64,000 nucleotides of DNA. Source: Gemmiger formicilis. GTDB lineage: Bacteria > Bacillota > Clostridia > Oscillospirales > Ruminococcaceae. Shown here piece after piece: positions 1 to 7,274 of this stretch. The notes below the pieces were generated by a model that was not told the DNA's origin, searched no databases, and worked only from the letters and a program-made list of their open reading frames with translations. Made by a program: the position numbers and the translations under genes. Position 1 is the first letter of the stretch. The number at the start of each line of letters is the position of its first letter. The stretch covers positions 1 to 64,000 of the forward strand of contig NZ_JACJJP010000006.1 of the NCBI RefSeq assembly GCF_016900095.1, given 5' to 3'.

Positions 1-36
1 AGCTAGCGTGTACTAATAGGTCGAGGGCTTGACCCC
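1..36 (+). rRNA. 23S rRNA, 3' end only
   Basis: The first bases contain the conserved GTACTAATAGGTCGAGGGCTTGACC segment in near-standard form (strand-terminal helix of bacterial 23S rRNA). Only the last few dozen bases lie in the window. The 3' boundary is estimated. A 5S gene follows on the same strand, as in a normal rrn operon. Confidence 0.85.
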
Positions 37-133
37 ATTTTCTTAGAGTACTTCATTTGCCAGCAGTTCGATATTCAGTTTTGAGGGCACATACCTCAGA
101 AAAGAGAAGCATGACAAGTGGCCATGCAAATGG

Positions 134-247
<114 letters not shown>

Positions 248-311
248 CTTCTCTTACAAACAGCAGCCTCCGGGCCGAGCCATAGGCCCGGTCCGGAGAT
301 TGCTTTTATAA

Positions 312-333
312 GCGCCATTAGCTCAGTTGGTAG
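312..333 (+). repeat. 22-nt copy of the tRNA-Lys 5' end
   Basis: Positions 312-333 are identical to the first 22 nt of the intact tRNA at 416-437 (acceptor strand and D-arm) and then diverge. There is no anticodon arm or 3' half, so it is not a functional tRNA. It may be a relic of recombination or integration at the tRNA gene, or of a lost neighbouring tRNA. Confidence 0.8.
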
Positions 334-415
334 CGTTAGTAGCCAATACTAAAGCTGAAAGCCGCTGAACTATTCAAAACAGGATTTGACGCTGTAACGC
401 GGAAAATCCTCATAC

Positions 416-491
416 GCGCCATTAGCTCAGTTGGTAGAGCAACTGACTCTTAATCAGTGGGTCCTGGGTTCGAGTCCCCGATGGCGCACCA
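416..491 (+). tRNA. tRNA-Lys (anticodon CTT)
   Basis: This is a complete 76-nt cloverleaf with encoded CCA. The acceptor arms GCGCCAT and ATGGCGC pair. The anticodon stem ACTGA/TCAGT encloses the loop CTCTTAA with CTT at 449-451. The T-arm contains GGTTCGAGTCC. It lies downstream of the 5S gene and probably belongs to the rrn transcript. Confidence 0.95.
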
Positions 492-496
492 AAAAT

Positions 497-527
497 AGGC
501 TGCAACAATTGTTGCAGCCTATTTTAT
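497..527 (+). terminator. Intrinsic terminator after tRNA-Lys
   Basis: A perfect 24-nt palindrome (497-520; 12-nt arms AGGCTGCAACAA / TTGTTGCAGCCT) is followed by ATTTTATT. It starts 5 nt after the tRNA CCA end and probably ends the rrn-tRNA transcript. Confidence 0.8.
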
Positions 528-547
528 TGTATGCTTTAGCGAAATGA

Positions 548-785
548 GAACCCCCAGCTCTGCTGGGGAGAGTAAAAAAGCTTTAGCTTCAAGCATCGAG
601 CGAAGCGAGAAGGGAGCAGCAACTTTACCATTGTCAAGAAAGCTGATCTTGGATAGACAGCGCCCGTTTACGGGCTGTAGGGCAAGTGATGCAAGTGGCG
701 GATTTTTCAGTGCCTCTTGAGAGGCTTGCCGGTACGATGCCCTTCTAGGGCTTACACAAGCCCCCGGCTTAGCCGGGGGTCTTGA
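548..785. mobile_element. IS200/IS605-like noncoding relic (terminal hairpins, no transposase)
   Basis: The stretch is bracketed by two strong imperfect hairpins of the kind found at IS200/IS605 ends: CCCCCAGCTCTGCTGGGG at 551-568 and CCCCCGGCTTAGCCGGGGG at 761-779. Between them are at least three more hairpins (GCCCG/CGGGC at 662-675, GCCTC/GAGGC at 712-725, GCCC/GGGC at 739-751). There is no tnpA or tnpB reading frame. The packed hairpins before the right end resemble a TnpB-associated omega-RNA region. The family assignment is by resemblance only. Confidence 0.45.
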
Positions 786-807
786 CTTGATGATATGGCC
801 GTAGATC

Positions 808-966
808 TCATGTTTGTCGTGCGTTTTTTATGACGTTATCATGATTTCTTAAAAGCAGTATCAAGGCGTTGGTATCCGTAACTTTTTTGAGGTAGACAGC
901 AGGATCACCGTTAAGGATTAAATCGGTATATACAGCTAAATCGCCCGTTGTTTCGATTTCGCTTGC
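808..966 (-). pseudogene. C-terminal coding relic, unidentified
   Basis: On the minus strand one frame is open for about 52 codons, preceded by an in-frame TGA at 967-969 and ending at TGA 808-810. It reads EIETTGDLAVYTDLILNGDP followed by AVYLKKVTDTNALILLLRN. The composition is protein-like, but there is no start codon or ribosome binding site. It probably is the tail of a gene cut away when the neighbouring elements inserted. I do not recognise the family. Confidence 0.4.
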
Positions 967-1038
967 TCACCCGATGTTCTTGTTCCCAAATGCTTATATT
1001 AGAATATCAAAATAGATAGGACAAGTATGCCCATTTTT

Positions 1039-1080
1039 AGCCGCTCGGTTTCTGGCAATGCCGGAACCGGGCGGCTTTTT
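1039..1080 (+). terminator. Intrinsic terminator in repeat copy A
   Basis: AGCCGC and GCGGCT arms, extended by CGGTT/AACCG, form a long stem followed by TTTTTGCTTTT. The identical structure is at 7004-7050. The IS110 element inserted 12 nt beyond the T tract. Confidence 0.75.
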
Positions 1081-1106
1081 GCTTTTCCCCCTTGTATTAT
1101 AGAGTC

Positions 1107-1285
1107 GTAGTTATTAAAGCCCCTCCCCAAGGGCTGTGCTACACTGTAAGGGATGCTGCGGATCGGTGCATTTCCCCCTACCACAAGATGGTTCTGGAGA
1201 GGTTCCAACCACAGTCCCTTACATTTTGTTAATCAGTTAAATACCGCTAGACGGTTTATGTGGAACAAGGCTACAAAAGTAAGGC
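1107..1285 (+). ncRNA. Predicted bridge RNA of the IS110 element
   Basis: In IS110 elements a noncoding RNA from the left end pairs with target and donor DNA. Visible here: a 5' hairpin AGCCC/GGGCT (1119-1136); a target loop closed by TGTAAGGGA (1145-1153) and TCCCTTACA (1215-1223); and a donor loop closed by TTTTG (1224-1228) and CAAAA (1274-1278). Inside the target loop, 1168-1179 (GCATTTCCCCCT) matches the left target GCTTTTCCCCCT at 11 of 12 positions, and TGGAGAG (1195-1201) is the complement of CTCTCCA across the core and right target. In the donor loop, GTTAATC (1228-1234) equals the right end of the element running into the core, and ACAAG (1265-1269) is the complement of core plus left end (CTTGT). 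Apical hairpins ACCA/TGGT and ACCG/CGGT separate the two guides in each loop. The outer ends are estimates. Confidence 0.85.
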
Positions 1286-1329
1286 GCTCTGTGGATGAAG
1301 CATCACATTTTTCGTCGGAGGTATTTGTT

Positions 1330-2511
1330 ATGATGGTTTCTGTTGGCATTGATGTTTCAAAAGATAAGCACGATTGTTTCATCGTCACTTCTGATGGTGA
1401 AGTTCTGTCGGATGTGTTCACTATCCCCAACACCATAAACGGATTTCACTGTCTGTTGCGAAGAATCCAGGATTGCACCAGCACACAGGACAAAATAAAG
1501 GTAGGGCTTGAGGCAACCGGGCATTACAGCTACAATCTGCTCGGTTTTCTTCTTGACAATGGTCTAACCACCTATGTCCTGAACCCCTTGCGTACAAACC
1601 TTTACCGAAAGAGCCTCAGTCTGCGAAAAACAAAAACCGACCGGGTGGATGCACGAACGATTGCGTTTATGTTGTTATCCGATGCAAGCCTCAACCCCTA
1701 CACAGATACGGCATACCACACCGAGGAACTAAAGTCACTTACCAGATATCGTTTTGACAAGGTGAAAGAGCGTGCCAAGCTGAAAAGTTCCATTGCCCGA
1801 TTGGTTTGCATCCTGTTCCCAGAACTGGAAAAACTCGTTCCCTCTCTGCATATTGCTTCTGTGTACGCTCTGCTGGAGGAGTTTCCTGGCGCTAAACAGG
1901 TTGCCGCAACCCATTTGGCACGGCTGAAAGCACTTCTTGAAACCGCCTCGAAAGGTCGCTACAAACGGGATATGGCTCTTGAAATCCGAAAGGCTGCCAG
2001 AAACTCTATTGGTTCTTGGATGCCCGCCAAGTCCCTTGAATTACAGCACACTATCCGGCTCATCCGTGAACTGGATAATGAAATTGCTGAAATCGAAGAA
2101 CAAATCCAATCTATTATGGATGAGCTTCATTCTCCCATTACCACCATCCCCGGAATGGGCTTCCGTATGGCTGCCATGATCCTTGCTGAAGTTGGCGACT
2201 TCTCAAGGTTTGAATCCCCGGACAAGTTATTGGCCTATGCCGGGATGTCTCCCTCAACTTACCAGTCCGGGCAACTCAAAAATTGTTATCCGCATATGGA
2301 AAAGCGCGGCTCACGATACCTGCGCTATGCACTTTACAACGCAACCAAGTACGTCTGCCAGTGGGAATTGATCTTTGCCGCTTATCTCGCCAAGAAGCGG
2401 ACAGAGGGAAAGCACTACAACGTTGCCATCTCTCACGCCGCGAAGAAACTTGTTCGTCTTATTTTTGCTATGGAGAAATCTGGGCGACCGTATTGCACCT
2501 CAGCAGCGTAG
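1330..2511 (+). CDS. IS110-family transposase (bridge-RNA-guided recombinase)
   Basis: This 393-aa protein recombines a circular form of the element into its target through a bridge RNA. The N-terminal DEDD RuvC-like domain is visible: D8 in GIDVSK, E61 in GLEATGHY, D104 and D107 in KTDRVDARTIA. The C-terminal Transposase_20 domain begins around IPGMG and contains AGMSPSTYQSG with the probable catalytic serine S313. I chose ATG 1330 because conservation starts at MMVSVGID and GGAGG (1317-1321) lies upstream. The open frame does extend upstream, but that part overlaps the bridge RNA. The gene looks intact, with normal length for the family (about 330-420 aa), so the element may be active. Confidence 0.95.
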   Translation: MMVSVGIDVSKDKHDCFIVTSDGEVLSDVFTIPNTINGFHCLLRRIQDCTSTQDKIKVGLEATGHYSYNLLGFLLDNGLTTYVLNPLRTNLYRKSLSLRKTKTDRVDARTIAFMLLSDASLNPYTDTAYHTEELKSLTRYRFDKVKERAKLKSSIARLVCILFPELEKLVPSLHIASVYALLEEFPGAKQVAATHLARLKALLETASKGRYKRDMALEIRKAARNSIGSWMPAKSLELQHTIRLIRELDNEIAEIEEQIQSIMDELHSPITTIPGMGFRMAAMILAEVGDFSRFESPDKLLAYAGMSPSTYQSGQLKNCYPHMEKRGSRYLRYALYNATKYVCQWELIFAAYLAKKRTEGKHYNVAISHAAKKLVRLIFAMEKSGRPYCTSAA

Positions 2512-2610
2512 CGTTTTCTTGTTAGCCTGTGTCGGGGCTCCTGCGAGCCTCTGCTTTGCTATGCCTTTTTGCGCCATCTCATATTCACCACCACCATTCA
2601 CTTCTTGAGG

Positions 2611-2631
2611 TTGACTTTTAATAGTTAATCT
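2611..2631 (+). promoter_or_regulatory. Right-end half of a junction promoter formed on circularisation
   Basis: TTGACT at 2611-2616 is a near-consensus -35 box with no partner inside the linear element. If the right end is joined through one CT core to the left end at 1093, the TATTAT box at 1095-1100 falls exactly 17 bp away (13 nt of right end + CT + TG). The circle would then carry a sigma-A promoter reading into the bridge RNA and transposase. Confidence 0.75.
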
Positions 2632-2742
2632 CTCCACACCTCTCCCCCTAGTATAAATTTACCGGCTGGGAAGAAAAGTTATCTACCAGCCGTTTACATA
2701 GATCCGCAAATTTTAACGAAAAACAAAAGTGAGGCAAAAACC

Positions 2743-2865
2743 ATGAACATTGGCATCGATCACGGCTATTATGCTATTAAGACGCGGCACTGCTCTTTCC
2801 CAGCCGGTCTTACAGCCTACGGCAGCCACGAACCTTACACCCGCCAGGAGAAAAGTGCAAGCTAA
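2743..2865 (+). pseudogene. parM 5' fragment (repeat copy A)
   Basis: The frame starts with MNIGIDHGYYAIKTRH, the same N terminus as the intact ParM at 7169, with the same leader and GAGG ribosome binding site. After codon 36 (position 2848) the sequence departs from parM and stops after 40 codons. It retains only the first phosphate-binding strand of the actin fold and cannot be functional. It shows that a copy of the element's start once lay here. Confidence 0.9.
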
Positions 2866-3295
2866 AAGGAAAATGCGAAGATAGCCCTCATTCCTCCTAA
2901 AGCAACATAAGCGACCGCATGTTTGTGCATTACTATGCTTTGGTAACGGCTTTTGTTGACACCAACTGTACAGAATGATATATTTAGTTATATATGAGGT
3001 GATTTATAGTATAGATATTCGCATCAATTTTATAAACACTCTGAGTATATTAGATTTTCTCCACCAAGAGCGTTATAGACACACAATGTATCAGCCAAGG
3101 ATTCTTATATGATGTCTATTATCTATGCTTTCAAGCGTAATCCACATACTCGTTTTCCTCTTAATATTTCATTAAGCGATGGGAGTGGTGACCTTTGAGT
3201 TTATGTGAAAGCATTAAGAGACCGCAAGGAGCAAGCACAAAAATATATACTTTCTTTGACATAAAACTGCAATATATAAGGAAGGGATTATTGCA
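2866..3295. other. Noncoding AT-rich stretch upstream of the radical SAM gene
   Basis: About 430 bp with low GC and no convincing gene. It presumably carries the promoter for the peptide cassette. A 29-codon frame from ATG 3109 with a weak AAGG upstream is present but I do not call it. No strong hairpin was found. Confidence 0.5.
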
Positions 3296-4615
3296 ATGAA
3301 GGTCACCAAGTATTGGCACGCTTATCCCCTAGACGAGAAAGGGCAAATGCTTCTCTATAATGCATTTACCAATGCATTAGCCCGCATCGAACCCGAAAAG
3401 TTCCAGCAGTTTATAAGTTTTGCAAAAGCACAAACTCCTATTGATGATTCAGAGTTAAAAAAGCAGCTAACGATAGGAGGATTTTTGCTCGAAGATAATG
3501 TTGATGAACTGGCTCTCCTACGCTTGCGTTTACACTCAACCAGATATGATAGCACCTCCTTTGGGTTGACCCTGGCCCCCACTATGGATTGCAATTTCCG
3601 GTGTGTTTATTGTTATGAGAGCAAGGTAATTCACCACACCTATATGAGTGTTGAAGTACAAGAAGCAGTGGTGAAACTTCTTGAAGAACGGGCTAAGCAT
3701 ATTCGCAATTTCTCTGTGACATGGTATGGTGGCGAACCTCTACTGGCATTTGAAATAATTCTCCGCCTTTCTAAACGGTTTATTGAAATTTGCGAAAAAA
3801 ATGATATTACCTACACTGCAGGAATCATCACCAACGGATATCTCCTCACCAGAGAAAAAGCGGAGATGCTAGCAGCTGCAAAGGTCACTTTTTATCAAAT
3901 CACTATTGATGGTACCAGAGAAAGCCATGACGCATCCCGGCCACTAAAAAATGGCGCAGGAACCTATGATAAGATATTTGACAATTTGGTACAATGTGCG
4001 GACTTATTAACCAATGTTTCTATGCGTGTTAATGTGGGCCACAATAATGTACAGGCAGTGGATTCCATTTTTGAAAAATTAGAGGAATCTGGTCTTTCTG
4101 ACCATGTTGTACCGTATTTGGGAAAAATCACTAATGATAACGGAGATCCAGAGTTAGAGTCTATTTGTTTTACAACTTCAGAATTTGCAAAGCTCGATTT
4201 GGAATACACTTTTTCGCACTCATCCCACCTTGACTGGTTCGGAAAATATCCCACTTTAAAAGGCAATTATTGTGGAGCCGATTGTTACCAAGCGATGGTA
4301 ATTGATCCTGACGGATTTATATACCGGTGCTGGAATGAGATCGGAAATCATTCTTACGCGGTAGCGAACCTCTTGAGGAGCACACCAGACAATTTGTCTC
4401 TTTATTTTGATTATATGTTATTTGATCCTACAACTGACCCGCAGTGTTCACACTGTGATGTCTTGCCTTTGTGTATGGGAGGATGTCCTTATTACCGTGT
4501 ACATGACCGGCAGGAAAATCTGTGTTCAGTTTACCGTACAGAACTGCAAGAGTATTTGATCGCTGTTGCACATAAATTATTAGAAGAAAAGAAATCTGCC
4601 GGTTGCTCTGATTGA
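3296..4615 (+). CDS. Radical SAM/SPASM peptide maturase
   Basis: This 439-aa enzyme has the layout of RiPP maturases. An N-terminal region of about 90 residues (probable peptide-recognition part) precedes the radical SAM core with C99-x3-C103-x2-C106 (DCNFRCVYC), and YGGEP follows at 144-148. The C-terminal SPASM domain has C326, C330, C345, C384, C387, C393, C397 and C410, enough for two auxiliary Fe-S clusters. Such enzymes install thioether or C-C cross-links on ribosomal peptides. ATG 3296 follows GGAAGGG. The next gene is an ABC exporter and the one after it a Cys-containing small peptide. The GC content is much lower than in the conjugative genes, which points to separate acquisition. 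The exact chemistry cannot be read from the sequence. Confidence 0.88.
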   Translation: MKVTKYWHAYPLDEKGQMLLYNAFTNALARIEPEKFQQFISFAKAQTPIDDSELKKQLTIGGFLLEDNVDELALLRLRLHSTRYDSTSFGLTLAPTMDCNFRCVYCYESKVIHHTYMSVEVQEAVVKLLEERAKHIRNFSVTWYGGEPLLAFEIILRLSKRFIEICEKNDITYTAGIITNGYLLTREKAEMLAAAKVTFYQITIDGTRESHDASRPLKNGAGTYDKIFDNLVQCADLLTNVSMRVNVGHNNVQAVDSIFEKLEESGLSDHVVPYLGKITNDNGDPELESICFTTSEFAKLDLEYTFSHSSHLDWFGKYPTLKGNYCGADCYQAMVIDPDGFIYRCWNEIGNHSYAVANLLRSTPDNLSLYFDYMLFDPTTDPQCSHCDVLPLCMGGCPYYRVHDRQENLCSVYRTELQEYLIAVAHKLLEEKKSAGCSD

Positions 4616-4812
4616 GAAATAGTATATGGTTCTGCAAAAGCGGAGCAATATATTTTTTCCTTCTACTTGGATTGAACGGCCCATATTCCATGTAGACGGC
4701 AGGCATTATTTTTATAGATTAATAATCGATTGTCCAACTGACATCCGTTACTTCCAAATAGGATGATGTCAGCGTGGATCGCTCCTCTGTTCTAAGGGAG
4801 TGACAATAGATA

Positions 4813-6423
4813 ATGACAATATTACGCGTATGTAAAAAATACTTTCAAAACAATTATGGCAAGCTCATTATTTTCACGGGGCTTGCGATGATTTCTCAAC
4901 TTTTTGGGTTACTGATGCCATACCTAATCGGTAGCTTTATTGACGGACTAAATCGAAATCAAACACTGGACTTTGTTTTGAAATATTGTTTAGCCTTTCT
5001 TGTATTCTCGTTATTGGGGTTACTATTAAATTATATTATCAATCTCCTATATGTTAATTTACAAATGTCGTCGGTCTATCTTTTCAATACAAATCTAGTA
5101 TTCCATGTCCAACAGGCCCCAATATCATATAGCGAAGGGAAAGATCTCGCCCATCTTAATCAGCAAATTAACACAGATGTAAATGTTTTGATCATGTTTA
5201 CACTTGGAGTGCTGCAGAATTTTATAGCAAATTTGTTTATACTTCCAATTGTGATATCCGTCTGTGTCATACTAAATTCATTAGTAGCTAGCGTATTACT
5301 TGCCTTCTCAGTTCTTTACATTTTTCTCTTCCTAACGACCAAAAAAATGTTATTCCTTTATGACTACACCTGTAAAGAGGCACAAAGCCATTTTTTCGGG
5401 CGAATGTACGAGCAATTGGCAAATATCCGTTTTCTGAAAGAGAATAGTGCCGAGAATTTCTTTCGGGAGCGGTTAGACACACCCTATCAGGAGCTCTACA
5501 AAGCAACAATAAATAGTCAAAAATTTTTAATGGTGTTTGGAAGCCTAGATAGTGTAATTGGCTTTGCTTTACAAATCGCACTTTTTCTATTGGGTGGTTA
5601 TAGCATTCTTTCTGGCCGATTCTCTATTGGTCTCTTTGTAATGTTCTCTTCCTATTTTTCTATTGTAATGTCTTGCTTACGTTACTTTTTGAGCTTCGGC
5701 AAAGAGTATGAAAGCGCGTCTGTTTCGCTCAAGCGTTTACTAGATATACAATACGTTCCAGAGGAAAAGACTGGAGCAATCAAAATCAACGAATGTCAAA
5801 CAATCAAGGTACAACACCTGACATTTCGGTATAGCGAAACAGATCAGGAGGTTTTTCAAGATATTTGTTGCACTTTTTCAAAGGGAAAGACATCATGCCT
5901 TGTTGGGCACAACGGTGCTGGAAAAAGCACATTGATCGGTCTATTGTTGGGCTTATATAATGAGAAATATCCTAAAGGATGTATTTGGTATGATGACTAT
6001 GACCTTCAAGATTTGGATACCGGTTATCTACGTAAAAATTTGATCTCTGTGGTAGCACAAGCTCCTTACACTTTTGCCGGTACACTTTGGGATAATCTGC
6101 TCTTGAAAAATCCTACTTTGGCACAGTATCAGCGCGTTGAGAAGCTGGTAGATATTTTTGACTTGCCCAAAAGTTTATTAGCCAGGGACGTTCCTATTCA
6201 AGGACTATCAAATGGAGAACAGCAAAAAATATCTATTATTCGAGCTTTTCTGCGGGATACACCAATCATTATTTTAGATGAACCCACATCGTCTCTGGAC
6301 ACAAAAAGCGGCAAAGCTTTAATGGAATTAATCGATAAGAGCAAAGAAAATAAGATTATCATTTTAGTCTCACATGATTTATCAGTGATTCAACAATGCG
6401 ATACAGTAGTACATTTTTCGTGA
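4813..6423 (+). CDS. ABC exporter (fused membrane + ATPase domains)
   Basis: This 536-aa half-transporter has an N-terminal membrane domain of about six segments (roughly residues 20-300) and a C-terminal ATPase: Walker A GHNGAGKST near 366-374, signature LSNGEQQK near 465, Walker B PIIILDEPTSSLD near 483-495. It starts directly with the membrane domain, so there is no C39 leader peptidase; any leader of the peptide must be removed by another protease. It is probably a homodimer exporting the modified peptide or giving immunity. It lies about 200 bp after the maturase and 78 bp before the candidate precursor. AT-rich codon use matches the maturase. Confidence 0.85.
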   Translation: MTILRVCKKYFQNNYGKLIIFTGLAMISQLFGLLMPYLIGSFIDGLNRNQTLDFVLKYCLAFLVFSLLGLLLNYIINLLYVNLQMSSVYLFNTNLVFHVQQAPISYSEGKDLAHLNQQINTDVNVLIMFTLGVLQNFIANLFILPIVISVCVILNSLVASVLLAFSVLYIFLFLTTKKMLFLYDYTCKEAQSHFFGRMYEQLANIRFLKENSAENFFRERLDTPYQELYKATINSQKFLMVFGSLDSVIGFALQIALFLLGGYSILSGRFSIGLFVMFSSYFSIVMSCLRYFLSFGKEYESASVSLKRLLDIQYVPEEKTGAIKINECQTIKVQHLTFRYSETDQEVFQDICCTFSKGKTSCLVGHNGAGKSTLIGLLLGLYNEKYPKGCIWYDDYDLQDLDTGYLRKNLISVVAQAPYTFAGTLWDNLLLKNPTLAQYQRVEKLVDIFDLPKSLLARDVPIQGLSNGEQQKISIIRAFLRDTPIIILDEPTSSLDTKSGKALMELIDKSKENKIIILVSHDLSVIQQCDTVVHFS

Positions 6424-6983: not shown

Positions 6984-7274
6984 GGACAAGTGCGCCCATT
7001 TTTAGCCGCTCGGTTTCTGGCAATGCCGGAACCGGGCGGCTTTTTGCTTTTCCCCCTCTCCACACCTCTCCCCCTAGTATAAATTTACCGGCTGGGAAGA
7101 AAAGTTATCTACCAGCTGTTTACATAGATCCGCAAATCTCAACGAAAAGCGAAAGTGAGGCAAAAACCATGAACATTGGCATCGATCACGGCTATTACGC
7201 CATCAAGACGCGGCATTGTTCTTTCCCAGCCGGTCTTACAGCCTATGGTAGCCACGAACCTTACACCCGCCAGG
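6984..7274 (+). repeat. Direct repeat copy B (intact; continues into parM)
   Basis: This 291-bp segment is the uninterrupted partner of copy A. It holds the terminator at 7004-7045, the empty IS110 target with its single CT at 7056-7057, a TAGTATAAAT box at 7075-7084 that may be the parM -10 region, and the first 35 codons of parM. Confidence 0.92.

Follow-up and report, generated by a model that had tools for sequence, protein, structure and literature searches.

In IS621, the bridge RNA begins with a 5′ hairpin, followed by a left target guide (LTG), a hairpin and a right target guide (RTG), and then by a left donor guide (LDG), a hairpin and a right donor guide (RDG), as described in the available portions of two reports (PMC11208160; PMC11208158). 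A promoter arises across the joined right and left ends (RE-LE) of this element (Durrant et al. 2024, PMC11208160), and longer RTGs are mentioned for some of its orthologues in the accessible part of the same paper. For the ISEc21 branch, the accessible text describes the natural redirection of one relative, ISMch6, by changed guide letters (PMC11187229). Here we describe an IS110-group element located in the window, i.e. the whole 64,000-nucleotide stretch of Gemmiger formicilis DNA that was analysed (all window features given below lie on the + strand). It is almost certain that the noncoding left end of this element (1093–1329) encodes an IS110-group bridge RNA, and that a promoter formed at the junction of a circle transcribes this RNA and then the recombinase gene. 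The ends, the core, an empty site, the order of the guides, the covariation of guides with targets and of the RDG with the left end, the fold and the promoter letters are all read from the DNA; transcription, binding, catalysis and the circle itself we infer by analogy with IS621.

The boundaries of the element were determined by comparison with an unoccupied copy of the target site. In a search of the element's own genome with 1060–2660 as the query, segments 1060–1092 and 2630–2660 recurred abutting one another at 7025–7086, and this copy equals 1060–1092 plus 2632–2660 letter for letter. Since the two flanks minus the shared CT give exactly 7025–7086, the element spans 1093–2631 (1539 bp, including the right but not the left copy of the CT core) and its core dinucleotide is CT (1091–1092 on the left, 2630–2631 on the right). 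These are the only letters that the two ends have in common, and the insertion, made at a dinucleotide core, is not accompanied by target duplication. The left target, GCTTTTCCCCCT (1081–1092), has the same letters in the empty copy (7046–7057), and the right target with the core, CTCTCCA (2630–2636), is likewise found there. The empty site, 5.9 kb away from the left end, is part of a duplicate segment that also bears the start of an actin-like gene. The same search revealed no second full copy of the element in its own genome; since the window copy is the sole full one, its own mobility is deduced and not read from other insertions.

Another genome (G004) contains, at a homologous flank, the left part of the element with 98% identity and, elsewhere, an empty site. 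In this related copy (L126) the recombinase match ends after residue 188 and is followed by other sequence; a right end was not found. The own genome contains, in addition, a bridge RNA unaccompanied by any recombinase gene (L002; C22:125642–125849), 92% identical and equipped with other guides (GCATTACTCCT), the left flank of which matches these guides in part. It is possibly a remnant or a trans-acting copy. The segment between both copies of the target (3296–6423) encodes a radical SAM protein and then an ABC transporter, which may constitute a peptide-modification and export cassette. The first 22 bases (416–437) of a tRNA-Lys gene (416–491) are repeated just upstream (312–333), and such a repeat resembles what an integrating element might leave.

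The open reading frame at 1330–2511 encodes an IS110 recombinase of 393 aa, with matches to Pfam domains PF01548 (2.5e-41) and PF02371 (4.9e-23) and, above the cut-off, to NCBIfam NF033542, the IS110 family of RNA-guided transposases (7.1e-66). The nearest solved recombinases by sequence are those of ISCro4 (PDB 9t56; 1.8e-21) and IS621 (8wt6; 4.7e-19). Motifs GIDV, LEATG, KTDRVDAR and STYQSG align with both of these proteins, the SG of STYQSG coinciding with that of YESG in IS621 (conserved Ser). The noncoding ends on either side of the gene are unequal: 237 nt on the left versus 120 nt on the right.

The predicted bridge RNA occupies positions 1107–1285, its limits being set from approximately 7 nt past the −10 box described below to just beyond the donor loop. 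An initial annotation of the window, made from the letters alone, had proposed four guides within this RNA, and each of them agrees with the boundaries established above. The LTG GCATTTCCCCCT (1168–1179) matches the left target GCTTTTCCCCCT at 11 of 12 positions; the RTG TGGAGAG (1195–1201) is the complement of CTCTCCA; the LDG GTTAATC (1228–1234) matches the right end (2624–2630) at seven of seven positions; and the RDG ACAAG (1265–1269) is the complement of CTTGT (1091–1095). Their order and layout (5′ hairpin; LTG-hairpin-RTG; LDG-hairpin-RDG) are, as was also claimed, those of IS621. In none of 20,000 dinucleotide-preserving shuffles of 1093–1329 did the ordered set of guides occur, and single guide matches appeared in 0.11%, 1.3%, 1.7% and 24% of them. 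ACAAG alone carries little weight, since it is expected by chance in 24% of the shuffles and occurs a second time at 1183–1187. An Rfam scan of 1–6000 (E up to 1) identified 5S rRNA, one tRNA and one match under the gathering score of its family, and no match to a bridge-RNA family.

Relatives of the element were collected from genome contigs (the best 80 of 332) and from viral contigs (17); in the genome set, 13 of 150 genomes (own included) match at E ≤ 1e-60, in at least 30 places. Removal of duplicates left 121 elements, 120 of them with a left flank long enough for alignment. From these, 104 left ends were kept, which yielded 102 distinct guide-target pairs and 74 guide sets; the other 16 were dropped because of a degenerate left end, no CTACC at the LTG end, no RTG anchor or a short flank. 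Covariation was tested with one target per guide set (n = 74; 62 with a right flank) and 5,000 permutations.

The initial annotation had predicted that target guide and insertion site would covary among other insertions, and this was borne out on both sides of the core. The LTG covaries with the left flank at seven positions, −8 to −2 (z 14.6), and the RTG with the right flank at five to six, i.e. +1 to +5 and weakly +6 (z 15.5). Observed LTG matches numbered 600 versus 453 ± 10 after permutation, and RTG matches 444 versus 334 ± 7; none of the 5,000 permutations was as high in either case. From −8 to −2 the LTG match rates are 0.42, 0.55, 0.64, 0.69, 0.78, 0.88 and 0.85 (permuted 0.28, 0.31, 0.31, 0.31, 0.39, 0.66 and 0.61), position −9 scarcely differs from permutation (0.30 versus 0.25) and −1 is invariably C. 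The RTG rates from +1 to +6 are 0.98, 0.94, 0.87, 0.77, 0.69 and 0.32 (permuted 0.81, 0.69, 0.48, 0.32, 0.30 and 0.19), with +7 and +8 not above permutation. The complete match at the core arises by construction on the guide side, since the selection had required CTACC at the end of the LTG. When the left register is shifted by −3 to +4, z falls from 15.3 to 3.9 or less; shifts of the right register by +1 to +4 reduce it from 16.0 to 1.2 or less.

The donor guides were likewise compared with the ends of the element. The RDG agrees with the left end in all 104 cases (CTTG with ACAAG in 75 of 75, CTCG with ACGAG in 29 of 29), these being related sequences and not independent events, while the LDG matches the seven positions of the right end in 93, 92, 91, 68, 46, 92 and 88 of 93 relatives, two of the seven positions thus being poorly conserved. 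The exact window guide has one match in the viral contigs (L189), where no bridge RNA was apparent by eye. One gene-bearing element (L075, from 2309) has an RNA that lacks the entire target loop.

Joining of both ends by the recombinase in a circle would bring together a −35 box, TTGACT (2611–2616), and a −10 box, TATTAT (1095–1100), separated by 17 bp, and the resulting junction promoter would drive transcription of the RNA and of the recombinase gene beyond it. Right ends were assigned to 97 of the 104 left ends by a 21-letter pattern with at most four substitutions. Letters of a sigma70-type promoter run across the 97 joined ends, partly by construction of the pattern: the −35 letters are TTGACT in 91, TTGACA in three (TTGAC[TA] in 94 of 97), TTGATT in two and GTGACT in one, the −10 letters are TATTAT in 89 and TATAAT in eight, and the spacing is 17 bp. 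Since the search patterns contain the boxes and fix their spacing, these counts describe fitting letters and do not constitute an independent test. A candidate outward promoter of the left end (TATAAT, directed leftward to the disrupted gene), considered by eye, was rejected, as no −35 box was seen.

Many of the guide sets resemble the anti-Shine-Dalgarno tail of 16S rRNA. The LTG ends with CTCCT in 49 of the 74 sets and the RTG reads CTTTC in 46, both features being combined in 29; CCTCCTTTC forms part of the 16S rRNA tail GGATCACCTCCTTTCTA, which was taken from two related genomes (G004 and G124) because no 16S match was found in the own genome. Enough flank was available at 100 of the 102 guide-target pairs to look for antisense reading frames starting 5–18 nt left of the core, with a minimum length of 50 codons, or of 25 if running off the locus. 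Such a frame is present at 68 of the 100 targets, 60 of them with ATG, and its commonest distance (over the 68) is 10–11 nt. Among the 51 ATG frames of at least 100 codons, ten, some of them picked for a familiar-looking start, were put to Pfam, and all ten belong to known families, including UvrC, PurD and, twice, GcvT. Two different relatives from different genomes (L031 and L078) both lie before gcvT, 11 and 12 nt from the ATG. Insertion of a CTTG-type left end into CCTCCT places ACAAGGAGG ahead of the gene, as read from the sequence, so the Shine-Dalgarno sequence persists after insertion.

Insertion sequence copies usually lie between genes, and the observed pattern might reflect nothing but survival, insertions between genes being tolerated and therefore seen. 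The 40 targets without such an ATG frame, the window target among them, are compatible with this explanation, which we nevertheless consider unlikely, given that ATG frames accompany 60 of the 100 targets as against 17% of other CTCCT, CCCCT or TTCCT words in the same flanks (29% with any start), 9.6% of random positions (21.7% with any start) and five of 83 sites on the right side, and that the guides themselves bear the anti-Shine-Dalgarno letters. We propose a mechanism in which the target guides of this gut-Clostridia clade would be copies of the ribosome's anti-Shine-Dalgarno tail (CCTCCTTTC). The bridge RNA would direct the element to ribosome binding sites, in antisense orientation and about 10 nt before start codons, and insertion would leave the Shine-Dalgarno sequence in place; drift of the guides would later shift some lineages, e.g. 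that of the window copy, to other sites. If this is true, a selfish element borrows the ribosome's own address, and its target precedes a great many genes in any host that relies on it. The IS900/IS116 group of actinobacteria inserts between the ribosome binding site and the start codon. This likeness concerns the insertion habit and not the sequences; a literature search that covered partial texts and few subscription papers gave no paper confirming the IS900 target, and within the same scope nothing was found on Shine-Dalgarno targeting by IS110 elements.

The window target itself is of a different kind. Its core lies within a mirror-symmetric 23-mer, CCCCCTCTCCACACCTCTCCCCC (7052–7074), which reads the same backwards. 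With up to two mismatches this sequence (loci L156–L169 besides the window) occurs in ten of 150 genomes (own included; exact in eight), spanning four genera and two families, and twice in two of the genomes. An actin-like gene lies downstream of it in the window and, as judged by eye, ParA-/ParB-like frames are found near it in one locus (L168); in another (L158), no partition gene was seen nearby. It is perhaps a centromere or origin site. The window lineage thus targets a non-Shine-Dalgarno site that is conserved in what look like mobile-element regions.

How strictly the guides are obeyed can be judged from a single guide set (LTG TGGCGGCTCCT, RTG complement CTTTCGTG) that occupies 12 sites spread over two genomes; one of these sites lies within a copy of its own guide. 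The left target agrees with the guide from −9 to −1 in 5, 7, 8, 6, 8, 8, 11, 12 and 12 of the 12 sites, and the right target (two core letters and +1 to +6) in 11, 11, 11, 11, 10, 7, 7 and 2 of 11 sites. These counts indicate that core-adjacent letters are obeyed and that the outer letters are only preferences. The initial annotation had held that the specificity of this element can be read from its sequence, and this is correct next to the core, but not for the outer positions, which are loose. Insertions at sites that do not match the guides, which it regarded as incompatible with its reading, were encountered with respect to the outer letters, though not the inner ones. In the 3.26-Mb genome, TTTTCCCCCTCTCCA occurs once (the empty site), with one mismatch at no position and with two mismatches at three, a number that does not exceed that of its backward control.

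It is very improbable that the target is chosen mainly by the recombinase or by a fixed C/T-rich core (YTCCT-TT), with the guides playing a minor role and the outer matches reflecting a composition shared within the host. The strict sharing of only the inner letters by the 12 sites, the invariant CCT at the cut in the 74 representative targets and the unusual RTGs that occur at poorly matching flanks (L029, L034 and L068) could all be accommodated by such a choice. It fails to account for positions −8 to −4 and +3 to +5, which are well above permutation (z 2.9–8.5) and only in register, for the presence of the left signal within each left-end class (z 11.2, n = 51; z 9.1, n = 23), and for four other unusual RTGs located at equally unusual right flanks, i.e. 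those of L033 (CTGTCGGG), L063 (CTTAAGAA), L097 (CTCCATTA) and L092 (CTTCGTTA). Guidance by the RNA remains our preferred reading: guide letters and site vary in concert, and the RNA thus reveals the destination of the element, strictly only next to the cut. The guide-target pairs of the 74 guide sets constitute a natural specificity profile, strict by the core and loose beyond, which should be of use to anyone working on these recombinases.

The fold of the predicted RNA was assessed in an alignment of 68 of the 74 guide sets (L027, L072, L078, L086, L095 and L099 were left out), in which a named structure of 39 pairs was compared with shuffled and slid versions. Five of the sets left out (L072, L078, L086, L095 and L099) have an additional block, almost 50 nt long, past the 5′ hairpin of the RNA. 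Pairs are formed in 92.3% of the cells, versus 89.4% in the shuffled and at most 48.7% in the slid versions. Changes on both sides affect 13 pairs and 80 cells, versus 7.3 pairs and 29 ± 4 cells in the shuffles, which overstate independence, the sequences being related. The alignment shows that the predicted fold is kept by compensatory changes, most clearly in the 5′ hairpin (1104–1144; in 31 of 68 sequences both partners of the pair at columns 30/43 are changed) and in the hairpin that separates LTG from RTG (1180–1192; the loop-closing pair is A-U in 42 and G-C in 26 of 68). The hairpin between LDG and RDG (1243–1255; helix 6) hardly varies.

Both loops are closed by putative stems, formed by 1145–1161 with 1209–1223 for the target loop (helix 3) and by 1224–1229 with 1273–1278 for the donor loop (helix 5). 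The 9-bp stem originally drawn at 1145–1153/1215–1223 is perfect in the window, but its innermost pair, A1153-U1215, is almost specific to this copy: it forms in only seven of the 68 sequences (window included) and is unpaired in 61. Similarly, the inner four pairs of the proposed donor-loop stem are kept, whereas the outer two fail in 22 and 27 of 68. Although the window sequence, taken singly, has only a modest folding advantage over shuffles (z −1.74; eight of 200 equal it) and C/T-rich runs match one another easily, it is scarcely credible that the guide matches are due to chance or are copied target remnants, and the noncoding end a conserved leader or attenuator of the gene, since across 74 guide sets the guide letters vary, in register, with flanks that are unrelated, and the fold is kept by compensatory changes.

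Pieces of the left end of approximately 86 bp, which terminate precisely with the LTG's CT core, were observed at six loci: L187 (898–985), L181 (minus strand, from 1507), L193 (from 1440), L202 (around the guide), L027 (2174–2261) and L128 (1175–1261). Those of L187 and L181 (degenerate) are solo pieces stopping with the final core letter of the LTG, while in L128 and L027 the piece is directly followed by another left end seated on the LTG core. These four were identified independently of their end point. Before the end point was searched for, five gene-less left-end pieces with DNA on both sides were available; four of them end at the LTG core and the fifth, L002, spans the whole RNA. Four further pieces from the genus (L178, L179, L180 and L188) end with the contig and are thus uninformative. 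Searches with patterns into which the end point was built contributed L193 and found L128 again (two of 396 genomes), and also added L202, which is degenerate (one of 87). All loci together contain 113 distinct left ends, four of which are cut by a contig end. Among the remaining 109, 104 pass a loose loop pattern (L075, with its target loop deleted, passes wrongly) and five fail (L027, L128, L181, L187 and L193), so such scars are rare. No scar patterns were found in the viral contigs, in which eight stretches with intact loops are present.

The sites presumably joined in these scars have only CT in common, which suggests that the guide DNA may be a crossover site in its own right. The DNA of the LTG equals the left target plus the core, so it would recombine with the right end and its flank. 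In the product, LTG-CT-right target, the left half would then be perfectly matched by the LTG; the 86-bp left-end scars, ending at the guide core, would recreate a target and be hit again. This is the simplest reading of a small number of cases, among which the continuation of L193 partly resembles a left end. According to the accessible part of one study, movement requires a matching target around the element (Siddiquee et al. 2024, PMC11187229), which fits recombination at the guide DNA. Concerning self-targeting of IS110 guides, nothing was found in the partial texts and few subscription papers covered by the literature search. If the scars are read correctly, they expose a built-in weakness of such guide RNAs, the gene being a copy of its own target. 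The joint proposal, in which anti-Shine-Dalgarno guides lead to ribosome binding sites and recombination at the guide DNA leads to scars that are hit again, has in our estimation an even chance of being correct.

At the level of sequence, the window element is confirmed as a well-supported addition to the IS621-type bridge-RNA elements, a system from gut Clostridia that is distant in sequence from IS621 itself. What is new here is the natural series of guides and targets, the anti-Shine-Dalgarno guides and the scars. As far as the available portions of the IS621 reports allow comparison, both elements have the RNA in a long left end, an RE-LE junction promoter, two loops, a CT core, the guide order LTG-RTG-LDG-RDG and a recombinase with PF01548 and PF02371. 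They differ in the length of the recombinase (326–328 aa versus 393 aa here, the 4.7e-19 match extending over two partial stretches) and, in the same portions, in the RTG (4 nt versus approximately 7–8 nt with the core here) and in their targets; the window RNA, moreover, is known from its letters only. ISCro4, whose recombinase (341 aa) is the nearest solved one, was compared by protein only. In the IS1111 group, which is set apart from the IS110 group by long subterminal inverted repeats, the RNA is located in the right end, past the gene, whereas the conserved RNA of the window element is on the left and its right end has just 120 nt. The seekRNA of the ISEc21 branch, in the accessible part of its description (PMC11187229), resembles the window RNA in its upstream noncoding location, in the bottom-strand match placed ahead of the top-strand match and in having relatives naturally redirected by altered guide letters; compared by that description only, the ISEc21 branch offers one natural redirection (ISMch6), and the relatives of the window element offer 74 guide sets.
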